Positions 7,169 through 59,747 of a stretch of 64,000 nt of DNA are shown here, in pieces (position 1 is the stretch's first letter; each line of letters begins with the position of its first letter). This stretch comes from Salinisphaera sp. LB1. GTDB lineage: Bacteria > Pseudomonadota > Gammaproteobacteria > Nevskiales > Salinisphaeraceae. A program made the position numbers and the translations under genes. The notes beneath the pieces are model-generated. The model was not told where the DNA came from, did no database searches, and saw nothing but the letters and a program-made list of their open reading frames with translations. The stretch covers positions 3,850,501 through 3,914,500 of the forward strand of contig NZ_CP029488.1 of the NCBI RefSeq assembly GCF_003177035.1. The letters run 5' to 3'.

Positions 7169-8200
7169 TCACGATCGCGACGCCGCCCGTACCGCTTCGG
7201 CGAGCGCCCGCACCGTCAGCGGCGCACTGCCTTCGGCCTTGTTGTTGATCGTCACATAGGCGGGCTGCCCCGCGCCGATCGTACCGGCGATCACGCGTGC
7301 GAGCGCGGCGCGCGTGTCGGTATCCGGGTCGACCAGCGCGTCGAAGGGCGCGTAGTCGTTGCGCGCCTTCTCATAGCCGAATGCGCCGTGCTTGAGATTC
7401 AGGTTCCAGCGACACACCAGCGGGCCCGGCCACAACGCCCGCAGGATCGGCAGTTGTGCGGCGATCGGGGGCATCTTCGGATGCAGGCCCAGGCAATACG
7501 TCGCCCCCGTATTCTTGAGCACCTCGACGAAGGCCGGCCGCAACCATTCCGGGTTGCGCACCTCCACCGCGACAACCGCACCCGGCGCGTCGTTCGAAGC
7601 CGTTCCGGCGAGTCGCAACATGCCGTCGAGCCGGTCGATGAGGCGCTCGATCCCGCCGAGCCAGCGCCCCGGCAGCGGGCTGATCTGGAACACCAGCACG
7701 CCCAGCTTGTCGCCGAGCCCGCGGCTTGCGGGCGCAATATACGTACGCCAGGCCACATCGGCATCCAGAAAATCCGGATTGGCTGCCCGGCCCTTGCCGT
7801 CGGACGCGCGGATCAATGCATCCGTCACCCGTGCCGGTGCCTTGACCACGAAACGAAACGTATCCGGAACCTGTTCGGCATACGCGGCGTACTGCGCGAC
7901 GGTCAAGGGACGGTAGAAGCCACGATCGAGGCTCACGGTCCGTAACAACGGATGCTGCGCATAAGCGGCCAGCCCCGCCTGCGACAACTGCTTCGCAGTG
8001 TACAGCCGGTCCCACACCTGGCCGGCCCAGCCCGGGAAATGCCAGGACGACGTACCCAATCGCAGCTGTGACGGTAATTCGGCCGCCAGCGCCCGGGTGG
8101 CGGCATCCGGCGCGGCGGGCTGCACGCCCGGTTCGATCGCCATGTCGTCGTCGAACAGCGAGCCACTTCGCGGCCCGGCGCTTTGGGATTCGGCCACCAT
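7169..8200 (-). CDS. DUF72 (YecE-like) family protein
   Basis: 343 residues. From about residue 45 the sequence follows the DUF72 TIM-barrel family: the opening LRLGTSSWHFPGW, then RTVSLDRGFYRPL, the FRFVVKAP stretch near residue 125, an EVRNPEWL strand near 225 and the C-terminal AYVTINNKAEG near 320. The first 44 residues are low in conservation, so an internal start is possible. The family is common and conserved but its reaction is not firmly known; nuclease or glycosidase-like roles have been suggested from the fold. No signal peptide is seen. Confidence 0.88.
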   Translation of the reverse strand: MVAESQSAGPRSGSLFDDDMAIEPGVQPAAPDAATRALAAELPSQLRLGTSSWHFPGWAGQVWDRLYTAKQLSQAGLAAYAQHPLLRTVSLDRGFYRPLTVAQYAAYAEQVPDTFRFVVKAPARVTDALIRASDGKGRAANPDFLDADVAWRTYIAPASRGLGDKLGVLVFQISPLPGRWLGGIERLIDRLDGMLRLAGTASNDAPGAVVAVEVRNPEWLRPAFVEVLKNTGATYCLGLHPKMPPIAAQLPILRALWPGPLVCRWNLNLKHGAFGYEKARNDYAPFDALVDPDTDTRAALARVIAGTIGAGQPAYVTINNKAEGSAPLTVRALAEAVRAASRS

Positions 8201-51941: not shown

Positions 51942-52028
51942 GCCCGGGTGGCGGAACTGGTAGACGCGTCGGATTCAAAATCCGATTTTGGAAACAAAGT
52001 GCGAGTTCGAGTCTCGCCCCGGGCACCA
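51942..52028 (+). tRNA. tRNA-Leu (anticodon CAA)
   Basis: 87 nucleotides including an encoded CCA. The acceptor stem pairs GCCCGGG with CCCGGGC, discriminator A. The D-arm starts TGGCGGAACTGGTAGACGC. The anticodon stem TCGGA/TCCGA encloses the loop TTCAAAA with anticodon CAA, which reads UUG. A long variable arm of the Leu type and a T-arm with GTTCGAGTC follow. The 3' end is the insertion site of the element to the right, and its last bases are supplied by the left attachment repeat. Confidence 0.96.
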
Positions 52029-52103
52029 TCCCTCCTTCTAGGGATGTACAGAGAGATCCACGAGAAGGCCCGCATACCTTGGTATCGCGGGCTTTTTTGT
52101 GCC
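52016..52103 (+). repeat. Left attachment repeat (attL): tRNA end plus terminator
   Basis: From GCCCCGGGCACCATCCC to the end of the terminator run (TTTTTTGTGCC). It matches 59663-59747 with about eight changes, mostly in the first half; the terminator half is identical. The repeat includes the tRNA 3' end, so insertion leaves the tRNA intact. Confidence 0.9.
52068..52098 (+). terminator. Terminator of tRNA-Leu within the left repeat
   Basis: GCCCGC and GCGGGC close an inner ATACC/GGTAT stem, followed by TTTTTT. It is repeated at 59712-59742. Confidence 0.85.
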
Positions 52104-52133
52104 CATAGCATCCACGAAGGTCTATTGCCATCC

Positions 52134-52192
52134 GGGGGTACATGGGGGTATATCTGGGGGTACAAGCCGCGTGCCTACCAAAATATACCCCC
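52134..52192 (+). promoter_or_regulatory. Left cluster of GGGGGTA motifs, probable integrase arm sites
   Basis: GGGGGTA occurs at 52134, 52144 and 52156, about one helical turn apart, and inverted as TACCCCC at 52186-52192. Two more copies lie near the right end (59577 and 59589). Short repeated motifs near both ends of an integrase element are the usual form of arm-type binding sites. The cluster also overlaps the region before the integrase start, so it may let the integrase control its own gene. Confidence 0.6.
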
Positions 52193-52198
52193 AGCACC

Positions 52199-53407
52199 AT
52201 GCCCCTGACTGCCATAGAAGCCAAACAAGCCAAGCCCAAAGCCAAGCAGTACAAACTCGCTGACGGCGGCGGCCTTTATCTGCTGGTGCTGCCAAGCGGC
52301 GGCAAATACTGGCGCATGAAGTACCGCATCCACGGGAAAGAAAAGACGCTTGCCTTCGGCACGCTGGCCGACGTACCGCTTGCCGACGCACGAAGCCAAC
52401 GCGAGCAGGCGCGCAAGCAGCTAGCCGACGGCCGAGACCCGATGGAAGTAAAGCGGCTGCAAGACGAAGCGGCCAAGGCCAACGCCGCTAATTCGTTCAA
52501 GGCGGTGGCGCTCGAATGGCACGATCACAAGCGCCCACGCTGGAGCGAAAAGCACGCCGCAAAGGTACTGCGCTCGCTGGAGGCCGACGTATTCCCGCAA
52601 ATCGGCAAGCGGCCCATTGCCGAGATCACTGCGCCCGAACTGCTGCGCGTCATTCGCCATATCGAGAAGCGCGACGCCCTCGACTACTCTCATCGGGTGC
52701 TGCAACGCATCGGCATGGTGTTTCGCTATGCCATCGTGACCAGCAAGGCGACCTATAACCCGAGCGCCGATCTGGTGGGCGCCCTCAAGACGCGCAAGGC
52801 GACGCATCACGCCGCCCTATCCCGCGACGACCTGCCGGCTTTCCTGCACGACCTCGACCACTACGACGGCCACCTGCTGACCCGCTACGGCTTGCAGCTT
52901 ATCGGGCTGACGTTCCTGCGCACCGCCGAACTACGCACCGCCGAATGGCACGAGATCGACTTCGACCGGGCCGAATGGCGAGTGCCGGCGCATCGCATGA
53001 AGATGAACCACGAACATATCGTGCCCCTCTCGACCCAGGCCATCGACCTATTGAACGCCCTGCGACCGATCACCGGGCATTACCGCTATATCTTCACCGG
53101 ACGGAACAGCACGGCCCGTCCTATGAGCGAAAACACGCTGCTGTACGCCCTCTACCGGATGGGCTACAAGCGACAGGCGACCGTCCACGGATTCCGCGCG
53201 ACAGCTTCAACAATTCTCAACGAGAGCGGCTTTCACCGCGACGCCATAGAGCGCCAGCTAGCCCACGCCGAACGCGACAAGGTACGCGCTGCCTATCACC
53301 GATCCGAATATCTGGATGAGCGGCGAACCATGATGCAGTGGTGGGCGGATTATCTCGACGGCTTGAAGCGGGGCGCAAACATAACCCTTCTCCACGCAAG
53401 AGCATGA
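52199..53407 (+). CDS. int: P4-type tyrosine integrase
   Basis: 402 residues from the ATG at 52199; an upstream in-frame ATG at 52142 lies inside the arm-site cluster and is unlikely. Residues 1-85 are a DUF4102 arm-binding domain (YKLADGGGLYLLVLPSGGKY, then GTLADVPLADARSQREQAR), 95-190 the core-binding domain, and 205-390 the catalytic domain. Visible catalytic residues are Arg in LTFLRTAELR near 240, HxxR as HGFRATAS near 331, His in QLAHAERDK and Tyr in AAYHRSEYL near 366. This class favours tRNA 3' ends, which fits its place 170 bases from tRNA-Leu. Confidence 0.95.
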   Translation: MPLTAIEAKQAKPKAKQYKLADGGGLYLLVLPSGGKYWRMKYRIHGKEKTLAFGTLADVPLADARSQREQARKQLADGRDPMEVKRLQDEAAKANAANSFKAVALEWHDHKRPRWSEKHAAKVLRSLEADVFPQIGKRPIAEITAPELLRVIRHIEKRDALDYSHRVLQRIGMVFRYAIVTSKATYNPSADLVGALKTRKATHHAALSRDDLPAFLHDLDHYDGHLLTRYGLQLIGLTFLRTAELRTAEWHEIDFDRAEWRVPAHRMKMNHEHIVPLSTQAIDLLNALRPITGHYRYIFTGRNSTARPMSENTLLYALYRMGYKRQATVHGFRATASTILNESGFHRDAIERQLAHAERDKVRAAYHRSEYLDERRTMMQWWADYLDGLKRGANITLLHARA

Positions 53408-53435
53408 AACCTGCTGAATTATGGAATAACCCGCC

Positions 53436-54206
53436 ATGAAGAACGACAAAGCCACAGATGACGCGCCGAACTGGGAAGTAACTCCAGCCTTGGTTGAGTT
53501 CGAAAGCCGCCTAGCAAACAATTACAAGAACAACCTTATAGGTATTAAAGAACTTTTTGGGCGACTCATTTCTCTTGGCTGGGGCGACACTATTGCGCCA
53601 ACTACACACTCGCGAGTCCTACTCGAAGAATTCATAAGCGGCGAAGGATCGATACGCTACCGAGACGCTGCGGACTCTATTTTTCAAGGCATTGCGACCG
53701 ACAAGCCATCAATGAAACTACTTTTAGATACGCAGTTATTGTTAGCTTATCCACTATTGGTTATCGATTCATTGGAGCTCCAAAACGATTATTTTCGGGA
53801 GCTTCGAAACGGGCTGGAATCTATCAAGAAAGCGCTAATCGAAAATCCGATCGCAAACGAAGCAATTAGCGACCGTTTCTCTAATATTACCGAAGCAAAG
53901 ACCGCCTCCTTAGATTCATTACTAGCTGATCTAATAGGCCAACTAGATTTTATTGAAAAGTTCAGAGCACAAACTTTGTCTGTGATTCTCGATAAGCGGC
54001 AAATAAATTCGGGTCGACCCAGGGCGATTAAATCAATGATTACGCTAAGCCTATGGCAATCGCTGCGATCATTCGACGCATCCATGCGGGCAGCAGCCAA
54101 TATGCTGGCGCGTTTTTTTATCCAAAGCGGCATTGAGCTGCGCTCTGAGAAAAAATTGACCGAATCCATTTATCAGAGAATCCGAAATTATGAGCAAATC
54201 CGGTAA
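53436..54206 (+). CDS. AT-rich all-helical cargo protein of unknown function
   Basis: 256 residues, predicted to be almost wholly alpha-helical and soluble, with no membrane segment, Walker motif, Cys pair or nuclease signature that I can see. The DNA is far more AT-rich than the genes on either side, with AT-ending codons, so it has a different history from the rest of the element. It sits right after the integrase, the position where satellites and islands often carry accessory or defence genes. There is no good ribosome site before the ATG. The stretch LITLSLWQSLRSFDASMRAA-type region near residue 205-225 may be a helix bundle core. Function unknown. Confidence 0.7.
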   Translation: MKNDKATDDAPNWEVTPALVEFESRLANNYKNNLIGIKELFGRLISLGWGDTIAPTTHSRVLLEEFISGEGSIRYRDAADSIFQGIATDKPSMKLLLDTQLLLAYPLLVIDSLELQNDYFRELRNGLESIKKALIENPIANEAISDRFSNITEAKTASLDSLLADLIGQLDFIEKFRAQTLSVILDKRQINSGRPRAIKSMITLSLWQSLRSFDASMRAAANMLARFFIQSGIELRSEKKLTESIYQRIRNYEQIR

Positions 54207-54298
54207 ATAAGTCTCTCGACACATGGGGTATTTTTACCTCCGACGCCACTACGCGAGGCTTGCCATGTCGTTCCAAAGCACACCCAAGGAGTGCAGAC

Positions 54299-54493
54299 AT
54301 GGCCCAGCAAAGCCTTCTAAGGCTTCCCACCGTCAAAGCCCGCACCGGGCAGTCGCGTAGCTCAATTTACGCCGCCATCCAGCGCGGCGAGTTTCCTAAG
54401 CCCGTTCCCATCGGCGCCCGCGCCGTCGCGTGGGTTGAATCCGAGATAGACGACTACATCGAGCGCCAGATTCAGCGCCGGGGTGCAGCATGA
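54299..54493 (+). CDS. alpA: AlpA-family transcription regulator/excisionase-like
   Basis: 64 residues. The ATG at 54299 has AAGGAG 7 bases upstream. The protein is one MerR-like winged helix-turn-helix: LLRLPTVKARTGQSRSSIYA, then IQRGEFPKPVPIGARAVAWV and an acidic helix EIDDYIERQI. AlpA proteins activate excision and late genes of P4-like and cryptic elements. Its stop is inside the ATGA that starts the next ORF, so it heads a translationally coupled chain. Confidence 0.9.
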   Translation: MAQQSLLRLPTVKARTGQSRSSIYAAIQRGEFPKPVPIGARAVAWVESEIDDYIERQIQRRGAA

Positions 54494-54639
54494 ACGCCCC
54501 CGCCTGGAAGCTGGAACTGTACGCGCTCGCCTACCGGCACAGCGAAACAGGAGCGCAATACGATCTAGCCGCCATGACCGAAGCCGAGCAGTACGCCACG
54601 CTGACTTGGCTGCGCCGCTATGCGGAGGGCCGGGCATGA
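54490..54639 (+). CDS. 49-residue protein, coupled to alpA
   Basis: Starts inside the alpA stop (ATGA) and ends inside the next start (ATGA). It reads WKLELYALAYRHSETGAQYD, then MTEAEQYATLTWLRRYAEG: two amphipathic helices with an acidic middle. No family is recognised. Position in an unbroken chain of overlaps is the main evidence that it is translated. Confidence 0.55.
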   Translation: MNAPAWKLELYALAYRHSETGAQYDLAAMTEAEQYATLTWLRRYAEGRA

Positions 54640-54887
54640 AATCCCTACGCCAGCCCATCGACGCCAAGTGCAAGGATTGCATCTTCGATCCCGGTAGCGG
54701 TATGGGCACATGGCGCGAGCAAATCGCCCAATGCACCGCGCTCGCCTGCCCGTTATGGCCCGTCCGAACCGGGCCGGAGTCCGGGCCGTACCAACGCCCG
54801 GCTATCGACGACAAACTGCGCCAAGCCGCCGAGAAGCGCCGACGACGGCGAACAGCGTGCAATCGCAGCACGGAGGGCACGCCATGA
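54636..54887 (+). CDS. Small Cys-rich phage-type protein
   Basis: 83 residues. Two Cys pairs arranged as CKDCIFDPGSGMGTWREQIA followed by CTALACPLWPVR suggest a zinc-binding site. This CKDCIyD-GTWREQ-CPLxPVRP pattern is common in small proteins of Pseudomonas-type phages and satellites, where it has no assigned role. The C-terminus is Arg-rich. It overlaps its neighbours by ATGA on both sides. Confidence 0.65.
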   Translation: MKSLRQPIDAKCKDCIFDPGSGMGTWREQIAQCTALACPLWPVRTGPESGPYQRPAIDDKLRQAAEKRRRRRTACNRSTEGTP

Positions 54888-55042
54888 GGACAACACGAAA
54901 AAGCCCCGCCTACGCCAATAGCCGGGGCCGTCACCAAAGCACTTCGATCTGCACCGCCATTAAACCGCAGCCTGTTGTCGGATACAAGCCATCGAATCAT
55001 GGCGCCCGCCAGCCGTATCGGATGCGTGGACGTGTCTACTGA
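54884..55042 (+). CDS. 52-residue basic protein over a hairpin
   Basis: Starts in an ATGA overlap with the upstream ORF and its last base is shared with the next ATG (TGATG). The product is basic, Ser/Gln/Arg-rich and without fold signs. Near its start the DNA forms an inverted repeat (AGCCCCG...CGGGGC) that, on the minus strand, is followed by a T-run and so looks like a terminator for antisense transcription. The ORF may exist mainly to keep translation going across this structure. Confidence 0.45.
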   Translation: MRTTRKSPAYANSRGRHQSTSICTAIKPQPVVGYKPSNHGARQPYRMRGRVY

Positions 55043-55479
55043 TGGGCGCCGTTATCGACTGGTCCGGCGCGGTACTGATCCCGCCGGGCCGGTACACGCT
55101 GGGCTTCGTGGACTACCGAACCGCCGTGTACTTCCAGAAAGCCGCGAAGCTGGTGCTGACGTTTCGGGTACTGGATGCCGGCGAGCATTTCGGCATCGTA
55201 CTGGATCGTTATTACAACGTGCAGCGGTTGACCACGAAGCCGGGCAAACGGGGCGGCTTCAAAATCGGCCCACGGTCGGACTTCCTGCGCGAATACTGCA
55301 CGCTGTTTCCCGAGCGTTGTGCCAGGCGGCTGGATCGCATCCCGATCACCGAGCCCTTCAGCGGTGCCTATGTTGTCGGCGACGTTCAAACTGTTGCGAG
55401 GGACTATGCCCAGCGAACTATTCCCGACCCCGTGCGGTACAGCAAGATCGTGGCGCTTTTGAAAGTAGCCGGACCATGA
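55042..55479 (+). CDS. Phage/satellite hypothetical protein, 145 residues
   Basis: The sequence follows a family seen in prophages and satellites: IDWSGAVLIPPGRYTLGFVD, then FRVLDAGEHFGIVLDRYYNV and GPRSDFLREYCTLF, ending RTIPDPVRYSKIVALL. It is a compact beta-rich fold, soluble, with no catalytic motif that I can name. Family members usually lie near replication or DNA-binding genes. It is coupled to the ORFs on both sides. Role unknown. Confidence 0.75.
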   Translation: MGAVIDWSGAVLIPPGRYTLGFVDYRTAVYFQKAAKLVLTFRVLDAGEHFGIVLDRYYNVQRLTTKPGKRGGFKIGPRSDFLREYCTLFPERCARRLDRIPITEPFSGAYVVGDVQTVARDYAQRTIPDPVRYSKIVALLKVAGP

Positions 55480-55652
55480 ATACCGGGTTTAGCGCAGACG
55501 ACCCTATGCCTTCACCTGCACCTATACCTGACCTACTTGGCATCGTAGGCGAAGCGTTACACAGCAAGGGATGCAGGCGATGGGCTTGGCAGAGCAAAAG
55601 CCGTCGAATCGGCGATGAATTTGCAAAGCGGTGTGCTGTGCGCTATCCATAG
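55476..55652 (+). CDS. 58-residue hypothetical protein in the coupled chain
   Basis: Starts in an ATGA overlap. A Pro-rich first part (MPSPAPIPDLLGIVGEAL) is followed by a basic end with WAWQSKSRRIGDEF. The build suggests a short DNA- or protein-binding peptide. Not recognised. Confidence 0.5.
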   Translation: MNTGFSADDPMPSPAPIPDLLGIVGEALHSKGCRRWAWQSKSRRIGDEFAKRCAVRYP

Positions 55653-55824
55653 AGGCACTTCCTGCCTATCTGACTACGCCGGACGCTGTAGCGAGATCAT
55701 CCCCGATCCCGTGGCGGCGTCCGGTTTTGGGCATCGTCTGGTTCAGCGCCGCCCGGAAAACGCCTGGCAACTCCGAGCGGCGTTGTCTGCATCGTGGGCA
55801 GCTGGCATGTCTAACCATGAGTAA
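55615..55824 (+). CDS. Possible 69-residue ORF overlapping the nuclease start
   Basis: Overlaps the previous ORF by 38 bases and the nuclease start by 8 (ATGAGTAA). It contains a few Cys and His but no clear fold. It bridges what would otherwise be the only gap in the coupled chain (55653-55816), which is the main reason to list it. It may be spurious. Confidence 0.3.
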   Translation: MNLQSGVLCAIHRGTSCLSDYAGRCSEIIPDPVAASGFGHRLVQRRPENAWQLRAALSASWAAGMSNHE

Positions 55825-56191
55825 GCGCAGCCGAGACAAGGGCAAGCGCGGCGAACGCCAGCTAGCGGCTTTGCTGACTGCCGAAGGATTCCCGGCAAGC
55901 CGTGGCGTCCAATATCACGGCGGTACGGATTCGCCCGACGTGCGCTGTCCGGGTCTGCCCGGCATTCATTGGGAAGCCAAGCGCACCGAACGGCTACGAC
56001 TGTATGAAGCGGTCGAACAAGCTGGGCACGATGCCGGCGACAAGCTGCCCGTGGTGGCGCACAAGGCCAATCACCGCGAATGGCTGGCGGTCTTGCCGCT
56101 GTCCGATCTGCTGGCAATTCTGCGTGCATCCGATTATTGCTTAACGCCATCCAGCAACAGCGAGGGCAGCAATGCGTGTGAAGCGAGATAA
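55817..56191 (+). CDS. Putative PDDEXK-type endonuclease (Hjc/VRR-NUC-like)
   Basis: 124 residues from the ATG at 55817; upstream in-frame sequence is unrelated. The N-terminus KRSRDKGKRGERQLAALLTA, then FPASRGVQYHGGTDSPDVRC and IHWEAKRTERLRLYEAVEQA give the elements of a restriction-like fold: a basic helix with Glu, the acidic Asp in DSPDV and the E-x-K strand (WEAKRTE). This pattern is shared by Holliday-junction resolvases and VRR-NUC phage nucleases. A role in resolving or processing the element's DNA is likely but inferred. Confidence 0.72.
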   Translation: MSKRSRDKGKRGERQLAALLTAEGFPASRGVQYHGGTDSPDVRCPGLPGIHWEAKRTERLRLYEAVEQAGHDAGDKLPVVAHKANHREWLAVLPLSDLLAILRASDYCLTPSSNSEGSNACEAR

Positions 56192-56221
56192 AACAGCCCA
56201 GCCGTTACGCGAGCCGACACC

Positions 56222-56851
56222 ATGAGCCGCGACCGCTGGCGGCCGGCTATCGAATCGGCGCATCGCCTGAGTCTGGGCAGGCTGTTCGAGACCGGCGCGT
56301 TAGAAGTGGCTGCCGATACGTCGGGGTGCTGGCATTGGAGTCGCAACGGCGAAAAGGTGGCGGAGGTCCGCTACGAGGCCAGTCTAGGCGAGACCGAGGG
56401 CACGCTAGGCTTGTTCTACAACTGGACGCATGACGGCGAAGTGAAGGCTGTCCGCTGCCATATCCGCCTATCAAGTTTGCCGTTGAACTACGGCGGCCGG
56501 CGCTGGTACATGCATTGCCCGTACACTAACCGGCGCGCGCTCGTGCTCCACAAGTTTGCGGCTATCGAGCAATTCTGCCATCGCACGACGGTACGACCGC
56601 TGCCGACCTATGCCAGTCAGCGAGTCGGTGGTTGTGATCGCGTGATAGAGCAGCGCTGGGCACTACGCCGGAGGATGGGCGACACCATGAGCGATCTGTG
56701 CGGCGAGCCTTACAAGCCCAAGTGGATGCGCTGGCATACCTTCGAGCGCTACGCGGCCCGCGACGCAGAACTGGCCGCGCGTGAGGCCGCTTACATGAAA
56801 CGCATGTTCGGCATCGCGTCAATTTATAACGTGGTTAGCCTATGGATTTAG
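56222..56851 (+). CDS. Satellite/phage hypothetical protein with degenerate Cys motifs
   Basis: 209 residues. It follows a family common in plasmids, prophages and satellites whose usual form is a W-rich beta region, then FGGRRxWFICP with Cys pairs, then CR-x2-Y-x-SQ and a C-terminal basic helix. Here LNYGGRRWYMHCPYTNRRAL keeps the frame but most paired Cys are lost, and YASQRVGGCDRVIEQRWALR and KPKWMRWHTFERYAARDAEL match the rest. A 17-codon ORF (56172-56225) ends in the ATGA that starts this gene and may couple it to the nuclease. Role unknown, possibly DNA binding. Confidence 0.7.
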   Translation: MSRDRWRPAIESAHRLSLGRLFETGALEVAADTSGCWHWSRNGEKVAEVRYEASLGETEGTLGLFYNWTHDGEVKAVRCHIRLSSLPLNYGGRRWYMHCPYTNRRALVLHKFAAIEQFCHRTTVRPLPTYASQRVGGCDRVIEQRWALRRRMGDTMSDLCGEPYKPKWMRWHTFERYAARDAELAAREAAYMKRMFGIASIYNVVSLWI

Positions 56852-56958
56852 GCATGGATCGGATCAAGCGCGGGCGTCGCACGCGTTGGTAATCGAAGGG
56901 AGAGAGGGTGAACTGTCCCGTGCGAACTGGCAAGAAACACTGGAAGCGCAACCTATTG

Positions 56959-57243
56959 CTAGGCGGATGATGCTTGTTTGGTCTGCTTCGCGCGGTCCCG
57001 ACGGTATTGCCAGAACAAAAGTGCCTCGCAAACGAGGGCTGCCAGAACCGGAATTACGTGTGGTGATGGCCCACTGATTTCCCCAAGGGAAATGACAAGA
57101 ACAAGCACCATCGCAATGCCGTGTGAAACTCCTGGCCGGCGTCGCAACGGAGGAATGATCTTCGCGATGATAAGCCAGACCGCAGCAACCATTAGAAATC
57201 CGGCGAATTGGCCAACAAACTCCCCAGTTATTACAGCGGACAT
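56959..57243 (-). CDS. Small three-helix membrane protein
   Basis: 94 residues, with membrane helices at about 8-28, 40-57 and 62-82 and a basic, Gln/Lys-rich end. An AAGGG-like site precedes the ATG at 57243. It is the only gene of the element on the minus strand and faces the coupled chain. Such a separate unit in an integrative element may act in exclusion, lysis or membrane sensing; the sequence does not decide. Confidence 0.6.
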   Translation of the reverse strand: MSAVITGEFVGQFAGFLMVAAVWLIIAKIIPPLRRRPGVSHGIAMVLVLVISLGEISGPSPHVIPVLAALVCEALLFWQYRRDRAKQTKQASSA

Positions 57244-57297
57244 ATACCACCCTTGACTTAACGTCGAAATTCAGCGAGGCGGAAACCGTACGCTGCG

Positions 57298-57564
57298 TTG
57301 ATTGGGATTTTTAACTGGCGCCCCTTGATACGAATTGCGCCTGACATCAACAAGCGGCCAAGTTTGGTTATAGCATTGGGACTTCAGGTCGCCCAGCGAG
57401 ACCTTTGGCTACAAGGTGCACCTTTCGGCCATAGTCTCGGCAGATTCTATGCATTCGCGTGCGGGCGATACAGAAGCATTACGATCACCGCTAAAGAAGT
57501 AATCCGCGATGCAGAAAACGGCCGAGTGCAGGCCGGATCGTGGTGGCCAGCACTCTACCGGTAG
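57298..57564 (+). CDS. Possible 88-residue ORF ending in the palindrome
   Basis: Starts with TTG without a clear ribosome site. The second half (FGHSLGRFYAFACGRYRSIT, then VIRDAENGRVQAGSWWPALYR) is fairly protein-like. Its stop codon lies inside the palindrome TCTACCGGTAGA, exactly as the stop of the RHH gene does at 59380, so both end in Tyr-Arg. It may be a remnant of a paralogue or simply fortuitous. Confidence 0.3.
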   Translation: MIGIFNWRPLIRIAPDINKRPSLVIALGLQVAQRDLWLQGAPFGHSLGRFYAFACGRYRSITITAKEVIRDAENGRVQAGSWWPALYR

Positions 57565-57565
57565 A
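57554..57565. repeat. Palindrome TCTACCGGTAGA, copy 1
   Basis: Perfect 12-bp palindrome, 57 bases before the GTG start of the interrupted RHH gene. One of four copies; likely operator or other protein-binding site. Confidence 0.65.
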
Positions 57566-57647
57566 CAAATACCACGAAGCGGGCTATGCCATAGCTACGA
57601 GTAGAGAATACGGGAGGCATCGTGGCAAGCGCCCAGAATCAGAAGCG

Positions 57648-59008
57648 GGCTCTTCTGCACTGACATGCGCTAGAGAGGGATGACTGCCGCCGACAAATCC
57701 GTTTCAATACAAGCTCCTACACAAATACAGAAGGGGTTTGTAGATGGCGGCAACCATCCCAAGTTGGATTGTTGGTCTGCGCGGGCAGTGCGTCAAGGGC
57801 GTGGCGTGGGACGAAGCTCGTGGCACGCTGGTGTTTCACTGCGACCGCGATCGCCGCTTCGTGCCGGTGGATCACCGGAGCGGCGCACGAGGCACCGTCA
57901 ATCGACGGCTGCGTCGCGAGGTTCAGGATCTGCCGATCTGGGGCCGCTCAGTGACGCTCTCGATCGCGTACTGTCAGCTCAAGATCGGGGCGACGGATCG
58001 CCGTATGGAACGGCTGTCGTTCGTCGAGCCCGGCCATGGCTTCACACGCCGCTATGCGCGGTTTGTCAGCCAACTGGCTCGGCATATCAGCATCGCCGCC
58101 GTCGCGGCTTACACCGGCCTGGCGTGGCGTACGGTCAAGGCTATGGACGAACGGGCGTTGACGCGTGATCTGCCGGCTCTGGATCCTGGCGCACTGACCG
58201 GCCTGCGGCATCTGGGCGTCGACGAGGTCGCCCGCGCCAAGGGCCATGATTATCTGACCATCGTCTACGACCTCGAGTCCGGCGATCTGGTATGGGTCAC
58301 CGAGGGCCGTCGCAAGGCCGGCCTGACGGCGTTTTTCGATCAGCTCGATGAGCCCGTTGCCCAGGGCATCGAGGCCGTAGCCATGGATATGTGGAAGCCC
58401 TTTGAACAGGCGGTGGCCGAGGCGTTGCCGAACGCCGCCATCGTCTTCGATCGCTTCCATGTCATGCAGCAGTATTCGAAGGTGATCGATACCGTCCGCC
58501 GAACCGAGTTCAAGCGGGCAACCCACGCCGACAAGCAGGTCTTGGTTGGCAGCCGTTATCTGCTGCTCAAAAACGCCGAACGCTTGAGCGATAGCCAGGC
58601 CGCGCGACTCGATCGGTTGCTCGCCGTCAATGGCCCGCTCAACGCAGTCTATGCCTTGAAAGAACAGCTCCAGCAACTGTGGCACGCCCCAGCGAGCTTC
58701 ACCGTCATGGGCCAGCGCCTGGATGCCTGGTGTGCCTTGGCCGAGGCCACCGGGCTGGCCCCCATGAAACGCTTCGTGGCGATGCTACAGCGGCATCGCA
58801 CCGGGATCTGCAACTACGCGGCCCACCCCATCACCACCGCCCGACTCGAAGGCGGCCACGTCGCGATCGGGTTGATCCGTAAACGCGCTCGCGGACTGCT
58901 CGATACCGAATACTTCAAACTCAAAATCCGGCAAAGCGCAACGCCCGAACCACCCCTTGGCCTGTACGCTCTGACCGGATGATTGGCTCAAACCATGTCA
59001 CAAGAGCC
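57648..59008 (+). mobile_element. Complete ISL3-family insertion sequence
   Basis: 1361 bp. The ends are inverted repeats that start GGCTCTT (left GGCTCTTCTGCACTGACATG, right complement GGCTCTTGTGACATGG). The element is flanked by the direct duplication CAGAAGCG at 57640-57647 and 59009-59016. Eight bases is the normal target duplication of ISL3. Identical duplications and an intact transposase show a fairly recent insertion. Confidence 0.93.
57744..58982 (+). CDS. tnp: ISL3-family transposase
   Basis: 412 residues. DDE-type transposase of the ISL3 family: HLGVDEVARAKGHDYLTIVYD near 152 has the first Asp, AVAMDMWKPFEQAV near 210 and the NAAIVFDRFHVMQQ strand near 231 the second, and TARLEGGHVAIGLIRKRARG near 368 the Glu. 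The N-terminal zinc-binding region of many ISL3 members is reduced here. The start ATG lies 96 bases inside the left end and the stop 26 bases before the right end, so the gene fills the element. Confidence 0.93.
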   Translation: MAATIPSWIVGLRGQCVKGVAWDEARGTLVFHCDRDRRFVPVDHRSGARGTVNRRLRREVQDLPIWGRSVTLSIAYCQLKIGATDRRMERLSFVEPGHGFTRRYARFVSQLARHISIAAVAAYTGLAWRTVKAMDERALTRDLPALDPGALTGLRHLGVDEVARAKGHDYLTIVYDLESGDLVWVTEGRRKAGLTAFFDQLDEPVAQGIEAVAMDMWKPFEQAVAEALPNAAIVFDRFHVMQQYSKVIDTVRRTEFKRATHADKQVLVGSRYLLLKNAERLSDSQAARLDRLLAVNGPLNAVYALKEQLQQLWHAPASFTVMGQRLDAWCALAEATGLAPMKRFVAMLQRHRTGICNYAAHPITTARLEGGHVAIGLIRKRARGLLDTEYFKLKIRQSATPEPPLGLYALTG

Positions 59009-59053
59009 CAGAAGCGCTGGCGGGAAAACAGCGGCAAGAAACGGATCGAGGTC

Positions 59054-59069
59054 TATCTACCGGTAGATA
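59054..59069. repeat. Palindrome TATCTACCGGTAGATA, copy 2, inside RHH gene
   Basis: Longest copy, 16 bp. It encodes the YLPVD of the ribbon strand of the RHH protein, so site and DNA-binding strand coincide. Confidence 0.65.
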
Positions 59070-59379
59070 CGCTCGCCATGCTGGACGGGCTGGCGTCAGA
59101 GCGTGGCCTATCGCGGGCTGGCGTCATTGCCCAACTTATCAGCGATCAGCGCCAGGCGGCGCCGACAGAGGCCCGGAGCAAAGGCTATAGCTGGCGTAAA
59201 GCCACGAGCAGCGATGACTTCGACTGGCTCGTGATCGTGGACGGCGAGCCCATTGCAGGCGTCAAGCGCGACGACGTGAACGGCTGGCGCGGGAAGTACC
59301 TGCAAGGCTCAATGGCCTACAAGTGGGCGAAGGGCAAGACACGCGACAAGGTGGCATTCGATCTGCTGGACGCGCCTTA

Positions 59380-59394
59380 TATCTACCGGTAGAT
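59380..59394. repeat. Palindrome ATCTACCGGTAGAT, copy 3, at RHH stop codon
   Basis: Contains the stop codon of the RHH gene (reading Ile-Tyr-Arg-stop). Confidence 0.65.
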
Positions 59395-59472
59395 CAATTA
59401 CGCCCGCTAGTTAGAGGTGAGGCCGGCGCCAATCTTAAACGCTACAACGGCGCGCGCACGAGCTACGCGCTA

Positions 59473-59484
59473 TCTACCGGTAGA
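59473..59484. repeat. Palindrome TCTACCGGTAGA, copy 4
   Basis: 81 bases after the RHH stop. 59393-59662 holds no gene; it carries this palindrome and the right GGGGGTA sites. Confidence 0.65.
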
Positions 59485-59576
59485 CCTATCGCGCACTGAA
59501 TCAAGCACACGCAGTTATGCTCGCAGTCTTTCGAGGGGTAACATTGCCCCGCGCCACGTACCCACCACGAAAATTT

Positions 59577-59595
59577 GGGGGTACATTTGGGGGTA
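59577..59595 (+). promoter_or_regulatory. Right pair of GGGGGTA motifs, probable integrase arm sites
   Basis: GGGGGTA at 59577 and 59589, 12 bases apart and in the same orientation as the left cluster at 52134-52162. A weaker AGGGGTA is at 59534. They lie 70 bases inside the right attachment repeat. Confidence 0.6.
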
Positions 59596-59662
59596 TATTG
59601 AAACATGCCATCGAAGTTTTTACTTACTGGTCAACATGATACAAACCAGATGTGGTAGCCGC

Positions 59663-59747
59663 CCCGGCACCATCCCGCCTTCTAGGGATGTGCAAAGAGA
59701 TACACGAGAAGGCCCGCATACCTTGGTATCGCGGGCTTTTTTGTGCC
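59663..59747 (+). repeat. Right attachment repeat (attR) with duplicate terminator
   Basis: Starts GCCCCGGCACCATCCCGCC and contains a second copy of the tRNA terminator (59712-59742: GCCCGC...GCGGGC then TTTTTT). It matches 52016-52103. The CCA end is kept but no tRNA body precedes it. From 59748 to 60100 I see no gene; the last 60 bases hold the promoter of the KaiC-like gene. Confidence 0.88.

Follow-up and report, generated by a model that had tools for sequence, protein, structure and literature searches.

The window analysed here, 64,000 nucleotides of Salinisphaera sp. LB1 (contig NZ_CP029488.1, positions 3,850,501 to 3,914,500 of the forward strand), contains a 7.7 kb integrative element at 52018-59747 (window positions throughout), flanked by 86-bp direct repeats at the end of a tRNA-Leu gene. 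We hold it to be an even call that this is a phage-satellite-like element in which the module of primase/initiator gene and origin (pri-rep-ori) has been replaced by p145, a protein resembling single-stranded DNA-binding proteins (SSBs), together with a hexamer-repeat origin. A run of six overlapping open reading frames (ORFs) beginning with alpA is possibly the early operon of this small mobile element, the last ORF looking more like a DNA site and perhaps the point at which replication starts; the site recurs behind relatives of p145 in distant bacteria. The features concerned are given below, with identities referring to L024, a sister element of the same genus (genome G348).

51942-52028, + strand: tRNA-Leu (CAA), the insertion site (ARAGORN)
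52018-52103, + strand: left attachment repeat, 86 bp, overlapping the final tRNA bases (94% identity to 59662-59747)
52142-53407, + strand: tyrosine integrase (Phage_integrase 1.4e-20, Phage_int_M 4.4e-36; 88.5% identity)
54299-54493, + strand: alpA, regulator or excisionase (Phage_AlpA, PF05930, 2.7e-18; 92% identity)
54490-54639, + strand: p49, conserved small protein (84% identity)
54636-54887, + strand: p83, small protein with a Cys4 pattern (83% identity; ratio of nonsynonymous to synonymous substitution rates (dN/dS) 0.16; matches in relatives)
54884-55042, + strand: p52, probable small protein (homologous start, 53% over 30 amino acids (aa))
55042-55479, + strand: p145, predicted oligonucleotide/oligosaccharide-binding (OB)-fold protein of the single-stranded DNA (ssDNA)-binding type (AlphaFold, Foldseek, nine-member family A4)
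55476-55652, + strand: p58 ORF, probably no gene (codon score, G+C at third codon positions (GC3), overlap with the conserved DNA element)
55501-55535, + strand: hexamer array, NNACCT-type, candidate origin or ssDNA loading site (also behind p145 in relatives)
55502-55623, + strand: whole conserved cis element, comprising array, ~50-nt spacer and TGGCA boxes (profile from six other loci)
55817-56191, + strand: PDDEXK / RusA-like resolvase-type nuclease (phrog_244 2.1e-19; PDDEXK_15 0.0034, below the Pfam cut-off)
56222-56851, + strand: p209, accessory protein (behind AlpA in L027)
59662-59747, + strand: right attachment repeat, direct repeat

Predicted fold and distribution of p145

The protein p145 is predicted to be an OB-fold protein resembling the DUF669 ssDNA-binding proteins of phages. 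Its AlphaFold model (predicted local distance difference test score (pLDDT) 86.3) has the order three strands, two helices, two strands, and a Foldseek search of predicted viral structures returned 47 matches at E<=1e-3, several of them named DUF669 or single-stranded DNA binding protein, with template-modelling scores of ~0.45-0.62 by query length. Matches in the Protein Data Bank (PDB) are weaker, the best by Z being PrgE, an OB-fold ssDNA binder (Foldseek E 0.027, Z 7.6). No close solved relative appears in the fold lists, where absence proves nothing. For phage HK620, an assay identified the DUF669 protein as an SSB (PMC5928155). As far as that source describes such proteins, p145 shares with them the predicted fold, small size and a setting of replication or recombination; it differs in having no significant sequence similarity to them and in being followed by a hexamer array, none being described there for DUF669 genes.

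Whole-genome searches found p145 in its own genome and seven others. Counted with its own genome, it occurs in 4 of the 274 genomes searched from the class, 3 of the 85 from the order and 2 of the 398 from the phylum, in sets that overlap each other, and in 5 of 369 class genomes by a profile search, which added one new and distant carrier (G762). Two IMG/VR contigs, L015 and L044, also encode it. Nine clear members form alignment A4, and L025 (hmmsearch 7.8e-4) and L156 of G762 (6.1e-6) are distant homologues. There was no match in phage and plasmid records with the window protein or three relatives as query, and nothing beyond L044 and L015 in further IMG/VR searches; of the genome-collection scans, one found none and another only the known G289 locus, and more whole-genome searches added none.

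A conserved DNA site directly behind p145

Directly 3' of p145 lies ACCCTATGCCTTCACCTGCACCTATACCTGACCTA (55501-55535), a period-6 array of the form NNACCT, with TTGGCA boxes in the window at 55537 and 55586. A similar array stands behind p145 in L007, L009, L010, L011, L015, L030 and L044, and the cis site is thus found just 3' of the gene in eight of the nine loci with a clear homologue, strongly in six and weakly in two, with all eight arrays in the same orientation relative to p145 transcription. Alignment A5, made from seven of these loci with L008 and L009 excluded, has an invariant TGGCA ~50 nt past the array. When a profile was trained on six loci and the seventh held out, the best match fell just 3' of p145 in seven of seven cases, with E<1e-5 in six: 3.1e-13 for the window (the best in its 64 kb), 1.9e-16 for L010, 8.9e-14 for L044, 1.7e-9 for L015, 9.8e-7 for L030 and 6.2e-6 for L011. 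When the array columns were taken out, the rest of the held-out site was still found in four of the seven (window 0.0015, L010 5.3e-7, L044 5.7e-5, L030 0.0017). A lag-6 test against first-order resampling gave p<=0.01 in six of the nine clear loci, 0.284 in L008 and 0.228-0.895 in three controls. The array pattern, chosen after being seen, occurs once in its own 4.14-Mb genome, from which the reversed control pattern is absent. Since no plus-strand ORF of at least 30 aa crosses the array in three of the seven loci, what is conserved is DNA and not protein.

The link between site and p145 was put to a test less open to bias by an IMG/VR scan with ACCTNNACCTNNACCTNNACCT alone, which returned at least 120 loci. 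Among those listed, the p145 profile found one homologue, L044 (4.1e-48), with the array right behind the gene; a site profile trained without L044 ranked this locus first (9e-12), as did the post-array part alone (0.0058, next 4.6), and the best match of a column-reversed control profile was 1.4. The array alone is not specific, because the site profile also matches listed loci without p145 (see below), and most arrays among these loci sit in unrelated ORFs. As a side observation that agrees with an origin, in the phage contig L096 (3108-3980) the array, of the form ACCTNN, lies within a gene that matches replication initiation proteins (7.5e-9) and adjoins DnaB. In the phage contig L039 (9811-10647) it lies within an ORF without family match, followed by DnaB, and L116 and L127 have the array with genes that look alike by eye.

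The data show where the element ends, that alpA, p49, p83 and p145 are real genes, which fold is predicted for p145, and that the DNA site is conserved and linked with p145. In the mechanism we propose, AlpA stands at the head of a tightly packed early operon and would probably control it. p145 would load 3' of its own gene on the opened strand of the hexamer array, either coating it or nucleating there, and would recruit a primase and a helicase from the host or from a helper phage on which the element would depend, completing the replisome; the RusA-like nuclease may resolve recombination products. For helix-turn-helix dimers a six-nucleotide period is short; it suits OB folds bound to single strands. 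More widely, it is conceivable, if doubtful, that in primase-less satellites and integrative elements of distant proteobacteria an OB-fold protein starts replication at an ssDNA hexamer array behind its own gene, borrowing primase and helicase; such an origin type would be unlike iterons, where a helix-turn-helix initiator binds double-stranded DNA.

A number of results weigh against a replication origin served by p145. For the protein, no PDB match reached E<=0.001, a Z below 8 possibly reflects a mere common arrangement, and none of the nine A4 members has a significant sequence match to a DUF669 or SSB family in Pfam or PHROGs, one reaching phrog_7778 (SSB) at E 0.067 only. For the site, held-out L007 was weak (0.15), as was L009, outside the alignment, at the right place (0.042), and by profile there was no site in L008 (best E 2.5) or in the distant homologues L025 and L156 (no better than E 2.5). 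With the array columns removed, L011 (0.36) and L015 (0.2) were weak and L007 was absent. The held-out row had been among those aligned in A5, and the array was first spotted by eye. The lag-6 signal is weak in L010 (p=0.071) and in the window (p=0.039), whose case rests on motif and position and not on periodicity because 132 of 632 other blocks reach its value. Array-bearing loci without p145 were also matched among those listed (L059 at 4.9e-6, then 4e-4 and weaker), the surroundings of L059 holding no p145. A hairpin as the conserved core was rejected, folding being no better than in shuffles in most of eight loci (z -2.03 to 0.44), and the alignment fold has one of six consensus pairs with a double change, at -0.7 kcal/mol. 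There is a single repeat set, with no second within ~200 nt, no AT-rich block and a surrounding AT content of 0.42-0.50. Finally, a role in packaging or at the RNA level is compatible with the same data.

Two neighbouring observations concern single loci. In L009 the array (7729-7757) lies ~100 nt 3' of p145 beside a hairpin with a 9-bp stem, to which the lowest z of the eight belongs (-2.03). An inverted array in L008, first suspected by eye, was not upheld by the lag-6 test or the profile.

That the array is a packaging (cos/pac-like) site, or another site recognized by phage machinery, with p145 merely adjacent, is in our view unlikely. Such a role would fit the company the gene keeps on some contigs: L015 carries an integrase, a helix-turn-helix-like gene (by eye), p145 and the array together with TerL, HNH, capsid, protease and portal genes, and L044 has the same first four features with capsid, protease, portal, HNH and head-tail adaptor genes. 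In L044 the terminase large subunit was not seen and the array is flanked by p145 on one side and the capsid gene on the other. The two contigs are short, each breaking off in or near head or packaging genes. In L008 a small terminase gene follows p145 (phrog_51 3.5e-20), and L011, with capsid and tape-measure genes downstream, may be a prophage. However, the array follows p145 and not a terminase gene, and the packaging families listed for the 42 neighbour proteins of p145 loci (best 25 of 28) can all be attributed, by inference, to L008, L011, L015 and L044, a point tempered by the HGG protein of L010, which touches a terminase-small-subunit family at 0.0083. Moreover, a helper-specific site would be unlikely to stay alike across hosts so distant, and the site is absent from the sister element L024, which is without p145 (profile best no better than E 2.5). 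Among the matches listed for the same 42 proteins there was no Pfam primase; the helicase-type Pfam matches go with type I restriction genes, located in L030, and the PHROG matches include one DNA helicase family. As side observations, proteins of the HGGxSTGP type (phrog_6177) lie 3' of the primase or p145 gene in L024 (9046-9312) and L010 (4555-5025), and the p145 element of L030 has an HGGxSTG protein (by eye), with type I restriction-modification genes downstream.

Alternatively, p145 could bind the repeats in its own transcript and thereby control downstream genes, which we consider quite unlikely. TRAP binds triplet repeats in RNA and OB folds bind RNA too, and the single orientation of the eight arrays relative to p145 transcription is in keeping with such an element. 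Against this stand the lack of an Rfam match at the cis site, of a consistent fold and of all but hardly any covariation, and the named fold relatives of p145, which are mostly ssDNA binders.

The chain of overlapping reading frames

As the original prediction had it, the stop and start codons of alpA, p49, p83, p52, p145 and p58 overlap exactly, by ATGA at 54490, 54636, 54884 and 55476 and by TGATG at 55042. For ATG ORFs of at least 45 aa, the longest linked chain in 2000 dinucleotide-preserving shuffles of 54299-55652 comprised 0 (25 shuffles), 1 (1777), 2 (194) or 3 ORFs (4), and the chain of six is not due to chance. The codon statistics named as a possible refutation gave a mixed picture. 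With a score trained on 27 long ORFs in the window, alpA (0.19), p49 (0.34) and p145 (0.28) fall in the coding range and p83 (-0.02) and p52 (-0.10) are marginal; the score is an imperfect test because the low-GC 256-aa ORF of the same element is also only marginal (-0.01). For p58 the in-frame score is -0.34 (55476-55649) and GC3 is 0.48, where 58-codon references gave a mean of 0.30 for true coding (5th percentile -0.09) and -0.42 for wrong frames, and another plus-strand frame of the stretch scores above it (0.00). No tblastn match to p58 was found in 13 related loci, and GGAGG, present upstream of the p83 and p52 starts, is absent from those of p58 and p145. On its codon score and GC3, the lack of homologue matches and the cis site that overlaps it, p58 was rejected as a gene and is probably none; since it is not supported as coding, the chain of supported genes stops at p145. 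In the stretch 55653-55816, named as the only doubtful one, the codon scores of the six frames range from -0.17 to -0.26.

Conserved order in relatives, which was proposed as a check, holds in a sister element for the first four genes and fails there for the fifth. In L024, one same-genus element, alpA, p49, p83 and p52 keep their order and ATGA joins, and because the genes are conserved there with low dN/dS (integrase 0.10, alpA 0.06, p49 0.19, p83 0.16), the sequence comparison indicates purifying selection on alpA, p49 and p83. The same probably applies to p52, whose value of 0.33 takes in codons past 54972, beyond the end of DNA homology between window and L024, which lies within the gene. 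After p52, L024 carries in p145's place an ATGA-coupled 367-aa ORF that matches a DNA primase family (phrog_10514 1.3e-15). As the primase that takes the place of p145 is again coupled by overlap, the overlaps outlast gene swaps. ATGA or TAATG joins are also found in the p145 elements L007, L009, L010, L011 and L015, and in L008 the start adjoins the stop; elements of this kind are habitually packed tightly, so the packing is not a sign of one complex.

That all six small ORFs encode proteins produced in fixed amounts that act together with the nuclease, as originally proposed, therefore strikes us as very unlikely, even though the six-ORF chain is exact and alpA, p49 and p83 are conserved with their overlaps. 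p58 is non-coding by its codons and unmatched in the 13 loci, p145 can be swapped for a primase, and p83 and p52 have their own GGAGG, so that ratios need not be set by coupling. Both the nuclease (55817) and p209 (56222) are outside the chain, with no overlap links, and had no tblastn match in seven p145 loci (L007-L011, L015, L030), which speaks against their acting together with the small proteins.

The statement that at least four of these proteins lack an assigned function was borne out: p49, p83, p52, p145, p58 and p209 have nothing below E 0.05 in Pfam, PHROGs and NCBIfam. With invariant cysteines C12, C15, C33 and C38 in a four-sequence alignment, p83 is a putative zinc binder. It matches in L024, L008, L025 and weakly L026, and over ~half its length in 14 phage records; viral scans with p83 and p209 gave no matches, and a structure model of p83 (pLDDT 56) was set aside.

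Gene content of the element and comparison with known satellites

The element reads integrase, 256-aa cargo, alpA, p49, p83, p52, p145, (p58), nuclease, p209, ISL3 transposase and ribbon-helix-helix (RHH) protein, the features not given above being the following.

53436-54206, + strand: 256-aa cargo ORF, low GC, in a variable slot (GC 0.45)
57744-58982, + strand: ISL3-family transposase (NF033550 1.5e-92)
58979-59392, + strand: RHH protein (RHH_5 2.5e-05, one member of alignment A8)

Among its scanned proteins there was no primase, initiator, head or packaging family in Pfam, PHROGs and NCBIfam. This, together with the ISL3 transposase, which is probably a later insertion, would suit the view that the element has decayed and that p145 and array survive as functionless remnants. 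We think that improbable: the attachment repeats are 94% alike, the integrase is open, the codon use of p145 is coding-like and the chain is uninterrupted.

The nuclease (55817) combines its family match with residues E13, D38/D41 and E53xK55, read off the translation, which fit the RusA-like / PDDEXK motif. p209 is present in 4 of 85 genomes of the order (its own included) and in four plasmid records. The slot between integrase and alpA holds the 256-aa ORF in the window and an unrelated 368-aa ORF in L024. The 256-aa ORF has no family match in Pfam, PHROGs and NCBIfam and no defence match in PADLOC. A defence role was set aside, PADLOC having matched none of ten proteins (six of the window and four slot-cargo-type ORFs of L024, L007, L030 and L027).

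Gram-negative phage-inducible chromosomal islands (PICIs) have the order int, AlpA, pri-rep and, immediately 3', an origin in which two iteron sets flank an AT-rich stretch, according to PMC6092414. The element shares with that description the integrase with a specific attachment site, AlpA, one-way transcription from int to p209, small size and a site with repeats that directly follows a gene of replication type on its 3' side. It differs in having no primase/initiator match, with an OB-fold protein in the pri-rep place, and one period-6 set without an AT-rich centre, which adds to the points raised above against an origin. Because pri-rep and the second repeat set are missing, we do not file it as a PICI, though by analogy it may work like one. 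With the phage-inducible chromosomal minimalist islands (PICMIs) of Vibrio, in so far as PMC10803314 describes them, it has in common the very small size, int, alpA, small unknown genes and an ATGA-joined small gene. PICMIs carry a DUF3987-type primase and sit next to fis, whereas the window element, inserted at tRNA-Leu, is without a primase match; unlike it, the sister L024 does have a primase-like gene, as PICMIs do (PMC10803314). A likeness to capsid-forming PICIs, as outlined in PMC11389934, is seen in the relatives L015 and L044 with head and packaging genes on the contig, and no match to an own capsid, portal or terminase was found in the window element.

PICIs carry a primase/initiator module (PMC6092414), and a primase is obligatory in the PICMI search model, by the account in PMC10803314; elements with p145 and array in its stead would escape such search models. 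The p145-array pair would offer a compact signature, and a plasmid carrying it is a candidate minimal replicon. Among the titles and abstracts listed in searches of the open PMC literature, as distinct from subscription journals and preprints, none concerns a satellite that combines an OB-fold protein with a hexamer origin. A caution for annotation also follows: where an operon closes with ATGA-linked tiny ORFs, these can be cis sites misread as genes.

Two further repeats were observed. The palindrome CTACCGGTAG has four copies, at 57555, 59057, 59383 and 59474, in the surroundings of the ISL3 insertion and RHH gene; four copies were reached in 0 of 100 shuffles, and the palindrome is absent from 11 related loci checked. 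These copies are possible operators of the RHH protein, to which the RHH_5 match is assigned by inference, alignment A8 containing the window protein. GGGGGTA-like repeats, likely integrase arm sites, lie close to both element ends (52135-52186 and 59535-59590) and also in L024 (4613-4664 and 9655-9667).

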